Origin: Ophiocordyceps camponoti-saundersi (nom. inval.)
Lineage: Eukaryota; Ascomycota; Sordariomycetes; Hypocreales; Ophiocordycipitaceae
Length of the DNA stretch: 64,000 bases
Reading direction: 5' to 3'
Assembly: GCA_003339415.1 (NCBI GenBank)
Contig: PDHQ01000069.1
Span: forward strand, 94,883 to 158,882
Shown here: positions 36,641-46,837 of the stretch, one piece after another
Position numbering within the stretch: position 1 is the stretch's first letter
Layout: each line of letters opens with the position of its first letter
Notes under the pieces: generated by a model
What the model saw: only the letters and a program-made list of their open reading frames with translations
Database searches by the model: none
Told to the model about the DNA's origin: nothing
Made by a program: the position numbers and the translations under genes

Positions 36641-39600
36641 TCAGTGCTTGGTATTCGGGTCGATCCTCCACTTGAGGCAGTTATTCGCCACCGTCCCGCC
36701 CTGCTTCCCATTGACCCCCTCGCAATTACAGCTATCGACGGGAACGTGCAGATAACGCGAGCACTCGTCAAAGTTCCAAGTCCACTGGCAGCCATCGAAC
36801 ATGGTGAGAGAAACAACAATCTCCATGGCCAGGCTGCCGACCGAGTAAGGAAACTCATACTTGCGTTCCTTTTCGTGCTTACCCTTCAAGACGTCGCCGG
36901 GCTTGCCGAGGGAATTGCAAAAGGACTTGATGGAATTATCAAGTCTGTCGTGGTTTGACTTGCGGCCGCCGTCGTAGCACTCTCTGTAGTTCCGGCCGGG
37001 GATAGCAACCGCCAGCACGGGCTCGTTGTTAGGCTTTGGTGCTCCTCCTCGAGGCGGAGGCGGTGGATCCGTACGCCTCGGCGCCTCGGGCGTTGTCGTC
37101 GTCGACGACGTCTCCGGATCCTCTGGGCAGATGATCCAGTTCTCTGCGTTCCCATCGTCCATGGGTAGCGGGTCCTCTGCTGGCTTGTAAAGCAGTGGAC
37201 TATTGTAACACGAGGGATCGTAAAAGGAGCATCTGTCGACGAGCGGCTTTTCCATGGCACCGACCTCAGGCCGCACCGCGTTCCTCGGCCAGTGTCCGCT
37301 CGGGGGTGGCGGTGCTCCGGGCCCTATCGAGGGCGGTGGTGTCGGAAACGCAACCGATGGCGCCGTGGTCGTCTCCCTTCCATTCGGGCCGATGTATCTC
37401 ACCGCCGGCCACGAGGATGTAGATGCTGGCTTGGGCCAAAACTCTTCAAAGTCCTGTCGAGCATGAACCCTTCCATTGCCGCCAACTTTGAGCGTTGCCA
37501 CCTCAAAGACCCATTTCGATATCGTCAGGGGCGCCTTTGTGATGGTGCTTGTCCAAGTCCCGTCACTGACGGTGATGCGAGGATAGTCGACGACGCTGGT
37601 AGCGCGAGTCCACGGAGGCAGCTTCACCGTGCACGGAGGCGCGCAGGTGAAGCTCGGCTTCTCCATATCCCATATGATGGGGTCAATCCATATGATGTTC
37701 TGGTGGCCGGGATCGCCGCCGCCCACGTCTAAGACGGAGATCTGAGACCAGCGAGGGTGGGCTTTGACGTTGAGATTGTCGAGAGCTGGGATGCCGACGC
37801 CGTCTCGAACAATCATGTACTTGGCGCCTATGGTGATGAGGTGATGTATGCGTACGTTGGCGTAGTTTTCCTGTAGAAGCACGAGGGCCTTTTGACAAGT
37901 CTGCCCGTCAACTGCTCTATTGTCAGTACGCGCTCTCCATGTTCCGCAAGGGAGATCGCTTCGATGCCAGGGACTGTTCCTCAACTCACTGCAATCTTGA
38001 CCGTATGTCGAGAACCAAGAGTAGATGCCAGCTCCTGCGATGTAAATGCCGCTGGATCGACTGATGATCAGGCCCCAGGACGAATCACAGCCGCTGAATT
38101 CGTCGTCCCCTGCGCAGTTGTACTCGGGATCTCCTGAGAAGACGCCAACGGCCGACTCAAAGGGCGCAGGTGGACGCGGGTTCGGCTGATAATACGGAGA
38201 TTCCGTCTGGATCATGCCGGCGAAGACGTTGAGGGCGTTGTGGAAGTTGTACTGGTAGTAGACGGCGTGCTCTGAGGAAGTGCCGTATAGCCATACGGGC
38301 GATTGGCTTTCTACGAGCAAGCCGCGAGCAACGTATATTGAAGTTTGTTCCTGATAAGAGTTAGGCACCTATTTTCTCTCCTTTTGATCTTATAGATTCC
38401 ACGATCGTGATGGAGGGACACTTGCCATTGTGTTGTTTGCATCGTTCAGGTCAGGATCACTACCGATGAGGACGGGATAATAATTAGCCTGCTATGCAAG
38501 ATATACCTGTCCTCACGGATAGAGCTTGATTCATGACGGATGACTCCATGAAAGGCCCCCTTGTAGTTGTCGACTCGGGTCAAGTGTTCAGGGGGCAGAC
38601 GTACTCTATCATGTGGTCGGCGACCCAAAGCCACATGTTCTCAAAGTAGCCGGACGCACTCGGAGTGATGTGCATCATCAAGCTCCCGGCATGGCATCCG
38701 CTGTTGACGCCATTCGTTATTGGTGGGCATTCCCGAGGCGTCAAGTCAGTTCCGGTGGCTCCTCCGACCCGGACGTGGCAGTCTGTATGTAAAGCGTCTT
38801 ATTAGCGACGTCTAGGAGGAGCTATTTCATCTTGCCATACCCCATAGCGCCGCCGAGCCGGGAGATCGAGCCATGATATTCCACTCGACTGAAACGAGGC
38901 CGGCTGTTGGTCCACGGCTTGTAAAAAGGAGGTCCTGCATCTCCACGTCGCCGACTTCACCGGCGTTGCCTACTTTGATCATGGGTTTAGGATCTCTGGA
39001 TGAAGATGTGGTCAGATTTGAACATGTCGTGAACGTAGTTAGCACGTGTTTTATCCTGGACTACACAGCCCTGTAGAGGAAATGAAGAAACAACTTGCCT
39101 GGCATCGCCAAAGAATGGACCGGAGGCAACAAGCTGAGACCAGGCTTCGCCCACGATCTTGGAGCCCGAAGGCACCGTCACTGTACCTGTCAAAATGTAC
39201 GATCCAGCATCGACGAACAATATTCTCCCTCGGCTTGCCCGCAATGCCTCTTGAAAGGCGGCCGTATCATCAGTCGAGCCGTCTCCCCTTGCCCCAAAGT
39301 CCTTGACATGGACAAAGTCGGAAACAGGTCTATCCTCATACTGAGGCTTGGGCCGCTCAAAGTAGCCCCCATTGGAGTCGAGTAGGCCTTGCTGTCTTCG
39401 GAATCCCTGCACCTTTCGTCCTCTTGAGAACTCTCGACTGCCGCCCGTAGAATAGACCGGGCCCAATGCCCAATGGTCTACCTTGTCTGCTGGCCCAAGC
39501 AGAACAGCCCCAGAAGTGTCTGCTACGGCCTTGCCAACGCCTCGGAACTCGACGTTCTCAACAACAATGCCCGTGCTGCCGCTGCCAGGATCGGAATTGG

Positions 39601-42166
39601 GCGGCGCCATGAGCACGGCGGTTTCGACGTTATGGAAGGACGAGTCGATGAATGCAGCGGAGCCGATGTTGCCGGGGCCATCCCCAGGCTGGCCGATCTT
39701 GGGTCGCTCCGGAAGGAGGCGGAAGCCAACTCGGGCGTTCTTTATGGTGATGGATTTCCAGACCCAGCCCCAATCCCAGATGATTCGGACGGCCGTAGTA
39801 CAGCCATCAAATGTTAGGCGCTGGGCCGTGAATTGCTGATTGCCGCCGTAAATACCGAACCTGCCGCCCCGGAAGGTGATGTCGGATATGACGCCGCCGC
39901 TTCCGTTCTCGGCAAAGATTCCCCGTTGGCCGGAGCCCCTGGCGGCAATGATCTCGACGTTTTGTATGCTGGTGGCCTGCGCTACCTGGTAGTGTATAGC
40001 GGCAACGCGCTGGGCGGACCGTGTCGCCGTGATATCGATGCGTAGATTCCGGATCTGTCGATAGAAGTTGGCGGTGTTGACGAACCATTGCTGATCTCGG
40101 CCGTCGATTCCTACGCCGCCGCCGGTATACTCGTCTGTAGATAGAACGCCGACGCCGATGAAGTCGGAGCTAGCAAGGATGGTTGGCCAGTTATTCGCCT
40201 TGCAAGGTTTTCACGTCGTCAGTTCCCGAGCTACTGAGAAGTCTCTATGGATGAGAACTTACATCGCCAATGACCTGGGTGCCAAAGGGCAATTGGATCG
40301 AGGTTGAGACACGATACGTGCCGGGAGGGAAATAGACGATGGCGTTCTTGGTTGTCGATCCATTGCATCGCTCTCCGCATCTTCGGGGTTCATGAACTGC
40401 ACGGTTGATGGCGTCGGTGTCGTCCTTTTTTTTCAGAGTCAGGGTTTATCTCAGCTGATATGACAGAAGAATGTGTGATGTTTTTGACTTACAGTCGTTC
40501 CGTCTCCTGTTGCACCAAAGTCGCGAACGTTTCGAAAGATCTGAAGCAAATCTCGGTGAATACGGATCGAATATGTGATACAGGATAGGGATTCACGCAC
40601 CTTGTAATTCGGATCATCACCCCAAGGCACAGTTCCCTTTCGTTCGATATGCTGCATCCAGTACGTCGCTGCAGAGCGCTTGGTGAAGTTGGCCTGCCTC
40701 AGCGCCTCCATTCGGGCGTTTGCGTTAGAGACCAGAGCCGCAGCGGCAGCTATCTCCTTTGTAATCTCCAAGAGCGGAGGCACTTTGTTACCCTCGTTAT
40801 CGAGGTCTGGGCGGTTTCTGTAAGCCAGCTTGTATTTTCTCCCCATAGGCCGTTCGTAACGAGCCTTGTTGAGCTCCGATGACTTGAGTATGGCAGCTTC
40901 AACAATTTCGCGGGCCCTGGCCAGTTCCAAAGACTCTCCGCTTCTCAGGAGAGGTTTCGAAGACGTCGAGTTCATCGGGTGTAAATGAACCTCCCGCTTT
41001 GCGTATGACTGGTGTTCGGTAGCTGGATGCTCCCACTCGTCCGTCTCTTCCGGCAGCGTCACGTTCTCTCCCATGTTCATTCCCATGGTTGATGGGTAAG
41101 TGCCCTCATATGACATGTCGTTGCTCGTGTCGTCGGCGAGGACCAGATCCATACTGCCATTCTTACCGGATGCTACGAGCTCGTCGATGCTGACGGTGTT
41201 TGCCCAATTCAGAAACTCATGATCGATATCGGAACGCTTCGCCTGAGTGACATCCTTGGGCGGTTCATCAAGCTGCGACAGAGCCGGATCGGAATAGTGG
41301 TAAACGCGCGCGGCGATGCCGTTCGCTTGATTGACAGTCCGGAGACGAAAGAAGACGATACTATCCTTCTCGTCAAAGTGCTGAAATTGACCGTAATTTT
41401 CCTTCCGCCTCTTCACCAGGCGTATCAGCTTAATCCGCAGCAGTTGATGTGACAAAGCCTGCCAATTCTGTTCTGCTTTAACCTTGACGCCGTTGTCGCC
41501 CCTGGCGCATTGAATAGCGGCGCATCTTGTATAGGATGGTCCACCATTTTCCGAGTTGCCCGGAACGCCAAACCCGTTCCCGCCCTCGACCCAAGTAGCT
41601 GGTGGAAACTCATCACATGAATACCTCACTCTGGAGTGCTCGATGATTCTCCCCAGTGGATCGCGCAGGTTCTGAATCTGATTTATCGTCGTGCCAGGCT
41701 CAAGGCTCTTATGGAGCCATGGACCGTCATGACGCATGACTGTATCCTGGTCCCTCTCAGGGCAGATATGAAAGTTTTTCCATGTCCTAGGACACGACTG
41801 ATCGCGTCTCTCGGATGCTCTGTCGTTGTTTAGGTCATAGCCGAACCGAGTCGACGGGCTGTGATTCTCTCCGCGAACACTTATATAGAATCTAGCCCTG
41901 TTTTTGCAAATTTCTCTCATGTAATAGCAGTTATACTCAAGATATACGAGCTCTGGATCGGTCTCAATTACCGGGCGAAGGTTGTCTGTCAATGTTGGTT
42001 GCCAAAAGGGCTTGAGCTTCTCTCTGGTGCCGTCGTCGTTGCGAACGGTGAGCCATTGGTACGTTTGGATAAATCCTGCCGAAACGTGAGTTGGGTTATT
42101 TAAAACAAGGAGTTGAAGCGTAGCAACTGCTATAAACTGGGAAAACAATCGACGGGACAGCTTCAT
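36641..42166 (-). CDS. Secreted NucA/NucB-like nuclease fused to GH55 exo-beta-1,3-glucanase, killer-toxin-like
   Basis: Nine exons: 42166-40601, 40540-40493, 40424-40263, 40198-39099, 38995-38841, 38782-38605, 38459-38426, 38350-37990 and 37911-36641; all phases agree and the product is about 1624 aa. Residues 1-30 are a signal peptide. Residues about 31-300 carry SCDEFPPATWVEGG (184-191 core), the DEYP/EGG signature of NucA/NucB nucleases. A linker (300-500) has Lys-Arg at 310-311, 390-391 and 496-497. GH55 begins at about 520: NVRDFGATGDGTTDDTDAIN, repeated as VKDFGARGDGSTDDTAAFQ near 890, with GLLVESQSPVWLYGTSSEH and IQTESPYYQP. A Pro/Thr-rich linker leads to a Cys-rich C-terminal domain (about 1513-1624: DGCQWTWNFDECSRY, GKQGG, LKWRIDP). 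Introns 38425-38351 and 39098-38996 are GC-AG. One acceptor (40425) follows an A8 run. It is divergent from the LysM/CBM18 gene. Function as a cell-wall-directed killer protein is inference. Confidence 0.85.
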
Positions 42167-43009: not shown

Positions 43010-44056
43010 ATGAGACTCTTGCCCTTCACTGCTGCTATCATCCTCTTGAATTCATGCCCAGGCAGCAGTAGTAACGAATGTCAACCATGGACGTGGCAGG
43101 GGAAACGGGACCTGGAGTCCAATGAGCTCCCTTACTTTCCATCAACTCTCATCACGACTCCTAAACCTCAACCTGGCGAGATAAACTGCCGCCTTAGAAC
43201 TTGGAAGGCAAAGGAAGTCAACTACTATTCCTGCAAACAATGGGCCGAGGATTTCGAAATCACCATGGACGAGTTTCTGTTTCTCAATCCCGGCATGGAC
43301 AAGGACTGCCAAAATGTCAAGCCTGACACGGAATACTGCGTCCGAGGATGTGAGTCACTGTCTTACTCCTAGTCTCTACTATCACTAAGTGACCTGTCTG
43401 GTCAGTCATTGAGCCGCTGAGAGCATATGATGGCCGCTGTGGTCCGAAGCACAACAACGCCACTTGCGTGGGTGTCGATTGGGGGCAGTGCTGCAATTCA
43501 GAGACGTGGACCTGCGGTGAGACAGAGTGCGTTCTACTCTACGCCAAACGATTGAGATAAGATCACGATGACCCTGACATGGATAGCTTATAGAGCAGAC
43601 TGCGCCCCCGGTGTCTGCTACGAAGGCATCTGCCCGGGACACGCGGTTTACACCACTGACGGCACATGCGGATACCAGAACGATTATCGCCTCTGCGCCG
43701 GTAAATGGGGCGATTGCTGTAATATGGACGGACAATGCGGCACGGGCGAAGAGTTCTGCGGTGAAGGGGTATGTCACTCAGGGAATTGCAGAGTCCCCGT
43801 CGATGCCCCGAAGCCTTCCCGAAACGACGTGCCATGGCAGAGTGGCAACACGCCGGACGGTAGCTGCGGCGGAGAGAAGGGCTTTACGTGCGATATAGCC
43901 TTCGGCAACTGCTGCAATAAGAACGGACGATGCGGATCTCAGCAGGAGGATTGCGGAGATGGCTGGTGAGTTGTTGAATCTTTGCTGGTGAGTGAGGATT
44001 GCTAACTGATATGATACAGCCAACCCGACTTTGGAAAGTGTGGGATGGATCAATGA
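43010..44056 (+). CDS. Secreted LysM plus three chitin-binding type-1 (CBM18) domains
   Basis: Four exons, 43010-43349, 43406-43526, 43594-43965 and 44020-44056; introns have GTGAGT, GTGCGT and GTGAGT donors, and the last two have clear CTGAC and CTAAC branches. The product is 289 aa. MRLLPFTAAIILLNSCPG is the signal peptide. A LysM follows (INCRLRTW, YSCKQWAEDF, ITMDEFLFLNPGM, DTEYCVRG). Three hevein-like domains come next, each with the Gly-x-Cys-Gly start and the CCN core: DGRCGPKHNNATC and GQCCNSETWTCG; DGTCGYQNDYRLC and GDCCNMDGQCG; DGSCGGEKGFTC and GNCCNKNGRCG. The protein should bind chitin or peptidoglycan-like glycans in the wall. In several fungi LysM/CBM18 proteins sit beside killer-toxin-like chitinase genes; here the partner is the nuclease-glucanase. 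Confidence 0.92.
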
Positions 44057-46288: not shown

Positions 46289-46837
46289 ATGTTTCCTCTT
46301 CTTTTCCTCGGAGCTCTCTTCGCCTCCACCTTGGTATCCGCGTCTCCTCTATTAGAGCCTCGCGGAGTGTGCAATGAAGGAACACAGCTTGTGTGCTATG
46401 ACCAGGCTCCTCAAGGTCTCGACTTGGCGGACGTGAAATACGCGGCCAAGGTTTTGCGCTCAATTGCCCGCCGCAACAGCGATCCGCCTCGATGGACCAT
46501 GTCATCTCCGAGCGATGTGGACTGTCCCGAGTGGACCATGACTATCTCTAACATCGGAAGCCTGCTGGTGTTGACCAAGCAGATTAACCCCCGGATAGTC
46601 TCTTCGGTCACTTACGAGGATATCGCCAACACTATCGATGGTGGTGAGGCCGCCTCCGATGCTGATAGGGCCAACTCGCTCCTCGCTTGCGGCTCGAATG
46701 GCGGCCAGCGCGGAGTCAAAGTCAACAAACAGAGCCCGGCGTATCAGGCGGCTGACTTCAAGGAGGGAAGGGTCAAGGCCAGAGGTATCATTATCAAACT
46801 GGTCAAGAACCCCAATCCCGACGACGATGATGAATGA
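46289..46837 (+). CDS. Secreted protein, 182 aa, conserved fungal family of unknown function
   Basis: Single exon with good start context (ACACCATGTTT). MFPLLFLGALFASTLVSA is the signal peptide. The mature protein has CNEGTQLVCYDQ, then AAKVLRSIARRN, WTMSSPSDVDCPEWTM, LVLTKQINPRIVSSVTYEDI and LLACGSNGGQRGV, and ends in an acidic DDDDE tail. The spacing of four Cys suggests two disulfides. Proteins with this pattern (WTM, DC.EW and ACG.NGG) occur in many ascomycetes as secreted proteins without known function; that comparison is from memory. The TAD-like NTIDGG and INPRI segments are consistent with the same family. Confidence 0.8.
   Translation: MFPLLFLGALFASTLVSASPLLEPRGVCNEGTQLVCYDQAPQGLDLADVKYAAKVLRSIARRNSDPPRWTMSSPSDVDCPEWTMTISNIGSLLVLTKQINPRIVSSVTYEDIANTIDGGEAASDADRANSLLACGSNGGQRGVKVNKQSPAYQAADFKEGRVKARGIIIKLVKNPNPDDDDE

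Follow-up and report, generated by a model that had tools for sequence, protein, structure and literature searches.

Within the 64,000 nucleotides analysed here (the window) from contig PDHQ01000069.1 of the ant-infecting fungus Ophiocordyceps camponoti-saundersi, a single nine-exon gene encodes a protein in which a nuclease-like N-terminal domain, predicted to share the fold of Bacillus NucB, is fused to a glycoside hydrolase family 55 (GH55) region and a Cys-rich C-terminal tail. Exon 1 falls within one open frame that comprises a probable signal peptide, the N-terminal domain, a linker and the very beginning of the GH55 region. Since this frame runs from the signal peptide into the start of GH55, the fusion is present in the DNA itself, and the possibility of two separate genes was rejected because exon 1 is common to both parts. 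An earlier note on this DNA, made from the sequence alone, had described a secreted product of one gene; the shared exon confirms the nuclease-GH55 fusion, and the protein would be secreted if the signal peptide functions as such.

The deposited model of this gene, CP533_4653, which is also the best homologue recovered (P0001), is 1509 amino acids (aa) long and places the nuclease signature at residue 41, rather than at 184 as in our model. Its start is therefore approximately 143 residues late, so that it lacks the probable signal peptide together with about two fifths of the nuclease domain.

Domains of the fusion protein

The predicted model of the nuclease-like domain superposes over its full length on NucB (5OMT and 9FJ7), the sole two matches among 318 chains, at 14-15% identity, which suggests that the whole domain adopts a NucB-type nuclease fold. 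By motif comparison, D185-E186 match D93-E94 of NucB, for which the available text of PMC5758888 gives the roles of metal ligand and general base. When both positions were left free in the search pattern, 49 of the 52 proteins recovered in a full-length search had DE, two had EE and one gave no match. Other counts of nuclease residues and of Cys were made on 36 sequences picked by C[DE]E[FW]P at residues 170-205; since this pattern selects on C184 and E186, their counts in that set are circular, and the Asp-Glu pair was taken from the 52-protein count. E194, D111, R120, E232 and Q233 are invariant in 36/36 sequences. The position of N234, a possible counterpart of the Asn metal ligand N117 of NucB by motif order, is N in 26 and D in 10 of the 36, or N in 35, D in 15 and F in one of the 52, with one giving no match. 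PF14040 was matched weakly by 20/20 nuclease domains of the family (domain alignments comprised 19 of 31 segments in one set and 19 of 24 in another, each plus the window sequence). The NucA/NucB-like assignment of the earlier note thus stands as regards predicted fold, obtained by the structure prediction it had proposed, and Asp-Glu pair, but not as regards the PF14040 score.

The GH55 region aligns with 5m5z at E = 5.7e-169, and the double beta-helix homology is intact, in agreement with the full GH55 part described earlier. Residues matching the GH55 active site are T634, F637, Q666, S692, W1061, W1063, D1066, E1108, H1109, E1131 and Y1134, a set that would supply the general acid, its Tyr, the proton relay, subsite -1 and the aromatic block; the residue at T634 is Thr in SacteLam55A and Glu in MnLam55A. 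Of the two profile matches that the note had put forward as checks, the one to GH55 was obtained, as Pfam placed PF12708 on this region together with weak others and no GH18, but that to PF14040 fell below cut-off.

The tail is predicted to have a Y3-type (PF22803) fold, and sugar binding by it is probable on that model. PF22803 was matched by sequence in 6/20 tail domains of the family (best E 0.0056), and the window tail matched Fungal_lectin_2 alone, below cut-off (E 0.017). Neither the tail nor the nuclease domain, searched by sequence, matched a solved structure. A tail-region search scored 548 candidates and found five, and therefore says little on whether such tails occur in other architectures; in the source genome, matches at E<=10 were confined to the fusion gene and one paralogue. 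Searching eight chitinase loci (of 16 GH18 matches in the genome) for parts of the fusion protein gave nothing better than E 2.6.

Processing sites, family spread and neighbours

Basic residue pairs of the Kex2 type, as in zymocin-type toxins, flank the linker and are candidate processing sites. They were counted in 36 of the 52 sequences, window included, that have both flanking motifs, the 16 in which the pattern was not found being dropped. A pair is present at the nuclease domain end (302-322) in 33/36 sequences (KR in 27) and immediately ahead of GH55 (486-504) in 33/36 (KR in 18), compared with 1, 2, 2, 4, 5, 14 and 15 of 36 in seven other stretches and a column mean of 8%; a third conserved basic pair, 120-121, lies inside the nuclease fold. 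Median identity is 34.5% for the linker, 43.9% for the nuclease and 65.4% for GH55 (41 homologues); the tail, compared over 40 homologues, reaches 41.5%. Seven Cys are present in the nuclease domain of 30/36 sequences, the remaining six having 6, 8 or 9, and in 19/20 tails; these odd numbers would allow one inter-domain bond, and a nuclease-tail disulfide may exist.

All 52 proteins of the full-length search, among them the window's own gene, have PF12708, and 51 carry a CDEFP-type signature; they come from, among others, Trichoderma, Claviceps, Epichloe, Beauveria, Colletotrichum, Neurospora, Penicillium, Xylaria, Westerdykella and Blastomyces. In 41/52, the window's own protein included, BLAST matched all three of nuclease, linker and tail, so that this survey, which the earlier note had suggested, overturns the idea that the architecture is a peculiarity of the O. 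camponoti-saundersi genome. The other 11 (916-1497 aa) are without the tail, and one of these also lacks the nuclease. PF14040 is precomputed for P0033 alone among the 52. Among shorter proteins, a profile search recovered 98 (142-532 aa), in at least one of which (P0061) the start of GH55 follows the nuclease-like domain. Another of the 98, P0137 (314 aa), has a CDEFP-type signature and the source name chitinase, which hints at further carriers. In bacterial and archaeal genomes, two peptide patterns matched 80 stretches, none confirmed by tblastn in what was a limited test. Open-access literature, among the matches listed, held no description of a NucB-GH55 fusion.

The same genome contains a paralogue (L014, G000:C222:561500-565500) in which one 571-codon frame encodes the nuclease-like domain and the Y3-like tail, each 31% identical to that of the fusion gene, with no GH55 between them. 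The only PF14040 match reported for the genome (L001, G000:C266:87371-87652) is by eye without the catalytic Asp-Glu pair (CNTYP), and profile comparison with the nuclease domain (probability 12%, E 0.0024) established no relationship.

Beside the fusion gene lies a gene for a chitin-binding-type protein (Table 1), in which Chitin_bind_1 scored E 0.0021 and 18.7 bits, below the cut-off of 27.8, and a Pfam scan gave no LysM match. A small protein with a hydrophobic start and no Pfam match is encoded at 46292-46834 (+), 4 kb from the fusion gene.

Table 1. Positions in the window of the fusion gene, its parts and a neighbouring gene.
Feature	Position	Strand	Basis
Whole fusion gene, nine exons, 1625 aa	36641..42166	-	Conceptual gene model
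Probable signal peptide, residues 1-30	42077..42166	-	Inferred; common mature start of homologues, xQ(Y/F)xQ
Predicted NucB-fold nuclease-like domain, residues 31-305	41252..42076	-	Predicted structure
D185-E186, motif match to NucB D93-E94	41609..41614	-	Motif comparison
N234, possible equivalent of NucB N117	41465..41467	-	Motif order, not superposition
K310-R311, Kex2-type dibasic pair at nuclease domain end	41234..41239	-	Conservation
Linker, residues 312-495	40682..41233	-	Median identity 34.5%
K496-R497, Kex2-type dibasic pair before GH55	40676..40681	-	Conservation
GH55 double beta-helix, residues 498-1260, with introns	37739..40675	-	Homology; active-site residues placed by hand via alignments
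Y3-like domain, residues 1507-1625, seven Cys	36644..37000	-	Predicted fold
Divergent Cys-rich chitin-binding-type protein, CBM18-like repeats	43010..44056	+	Gene model; LysM-like stretch by eye only

Readings of the fusion

We consider it plausible, if somewhat short of an even chance, that the protein is a secreted carrier and cargo proprotein, comparable to a killer toxin and directed against fungi. A Kex2-type protease, cutting behind residues 311 and 497, would free the NucB-fold nuclease from GH55 and the Y3-like lectin, and a disulfide between their odd Cys residues might still hold nuclease and tail together. Outside the cell the tail might dock onto cell-surface glycans, GH55 would breach the beta-1,3-glucan wall of another fungus, whether competitor or prey, and nucleic acid of the damaged target cell would be attacked by the nuclease. 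The earlier note had likewise proposed a killer-toxin-like system, and this gains support from the conserved dibasic pairs at the linker ends, the Y3-like tail, the chitin-binding-type neighbour and a yeast plasmid open reading frame (ORF) joining a chitinase to NucA/NucB.

Several observations weigh against this carrier and cargo reading. PF14040 scores of the nuclease-like domain were 16.0, 18.8 and 21.0 bits against a gathering threshold of 23.8, and Foldseek alone did not list NucB for it. By eye there is no evident equivalent of NucB H53, the N117-equivalent position is D in 10/36 sequences, and the C222 paralogue has CQEFP for CDEFP, with Q in place of D185. The second dibasic site is KR proper in 18/36 only, the rest being RR, and the odd Cys counts prove no bond, because the whole protein has 29 Cys. 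A hydropathy scan, a crude one in which the signal itself reached only 1.26, found all 19-residue windows outside the signal at <=1.6 (highest 1.37), and a counterpart of the hydrophobic beta subunit of zymocin is therefore not apparent. No killing, nuclease activity, processing or cell entry was seen for any family member, and the wide fungal occurrence suits nutrition or wall turnover equally.

This spread, with the lack of a clear translocation segment, would also fit an enzyme that digests extracellular DNA and beta-glucan together (in dead hyphae, biofilm matrix or insect tissue), which could serve nutrition, dispersal or evasion and would involve no cell entry. NucB is described as a secreted, biofilm-degrading nuclease and laminarin as a substrate of GH55 enzymes, as far as the available parts of the sources state (PMC5758888; PMC10637969). 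A matrix role does not itself explain the conserved cleavage-type sites parting the two enzymes, nor the odd Cys counts, and we regard it as a serious but tentative competitor. It is unlikely that GH55 remodels the producer's own wall and that the N-terminal domain is a former nuclease that now serves in binding or folding and is cut off by Kex2: the lower conservation of the nuclease than of GH55, the replaced D185 in the paralogue and the variable N117 position agree with this, but the five invariant residues and the retained Asp-Glu pair exceed what a scaffold needs. That CDEFPPAT/EGG is a chance motif within an unrelated fold is very improbable, since the sub-threshold PF14040 scores and the Foldseek result that would suit it are set against the full-length NucB superposition and the weak PF14040 matches of all 20 domains compared.

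A broader proposal, and a more doubtful one than the carrier and cargo reading of this protein, is that many filamentous fungi possess, as a chromosomally encoded class, antifungal binary proteins in which a Kex2-processed NucB-type nuclease would be disulfide-tethered to a glucanase-lectin carrier, with the carrier being GH55, missing (as in the paralogue) or GH18 (as in yeast plasmids). Many such fungi may have a conserved nuclease-armed wall hydrolase that is listed in annotations under 'GH55' or 'pectin lyase fold/virulence factor'. Should it kill, the logic of killer toxins would reach from yeast plasmids to filamentous fungal chromosomes, and beta-1,3-glucan would be the entry point; even without killing, a processed nuclease-glucanase pair would be unusual. 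Relatives in the laboratory fungi Neurospora and Trichoderma make the family testable.

Comparison with known systems

The GH55 glucanases 5m5z, 3eqn (PcLam55A) and 8jhh (MnLam55A) resemble the fusion protein in double beta-helix and active-site set, but their chains are of 752-758 aa as against 1625, and we know of no nuclease or lectin domain in them. Bacillus NucB shares the predicted whole fold and the Asp-Glu pair, but is a free enzyme of ~110 aa, whose H53 and low identity have been considered above. Similarly, Coprinus comatus Y3, and more distantly ginkbilobin-2 and Zt-KP4, resemble the C-terminal domain in predicted fold, but are small stand-alone proteins rather than the terminal domain of a large fusion. 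Fungal subgroup C (killer-toxin-like) chitinases differ in being GH18 enzymes with LysM/CBM18 within the enzyme itself, and to our knowledge they have no NucB domain. They too are large secreted wall hydrolases, often beside a LysM gene, as the available text reports for Trichoderma (PMC4392113).

Kluyveromyces lactis zymocin is described in the accessible text of PMC11119588 as a chitin-binding chitinase, a hydrophobic and a tRNA-degrading subunit joined by disulfides. A hydrolase/binding carrier with nuclease cargo is common to both, but zymocin has three subunits (one very hydrophobic), a chitinase and a tRNA-cutting gamma subunit and is plasmid-borne, whereas here one chromosomal gene combines GH55 with a predicted NucB fold. 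Since the logic is shared and the parts differ (GH55 for GH18, with no GH18 chitinase carrier with chitin-binding module found by Pfam; a predicted Y3 fold; and, on the crude hydropathy scan, no clear hydrophobic subunit), we do not class the fusion protein as a zymocin.

A close published counterpart, and one that qualifies the earlier note's remark that it knew of no described fungal toxin with this architecture, is pDH5A ORF2p of a Debaryomyces hansenii linear plasmid, a 1226-aa protein in which a signal peptide and Kex2 motifs accompany chitin-binding and GH18 domains and a NucA/NucB fragment (PMC8472843, as far as its available text goes). That text reports that killer activity was not observed for the Debaryomyces plasmids, which also counts against a toxin. 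The hydrolase and Kex2 motifs of ORF2p precede the nuclease, and the same portion mentions no Y3-like tail. ORF2p, though plasmid-borne and with a GH18 chitinase rather than GH55, is like the fusion described here in uniting a signal peptide, a wall hydrolase, NucA/NucB and Kex2 motifs in one protein, and has a chitin-binding module of its own.
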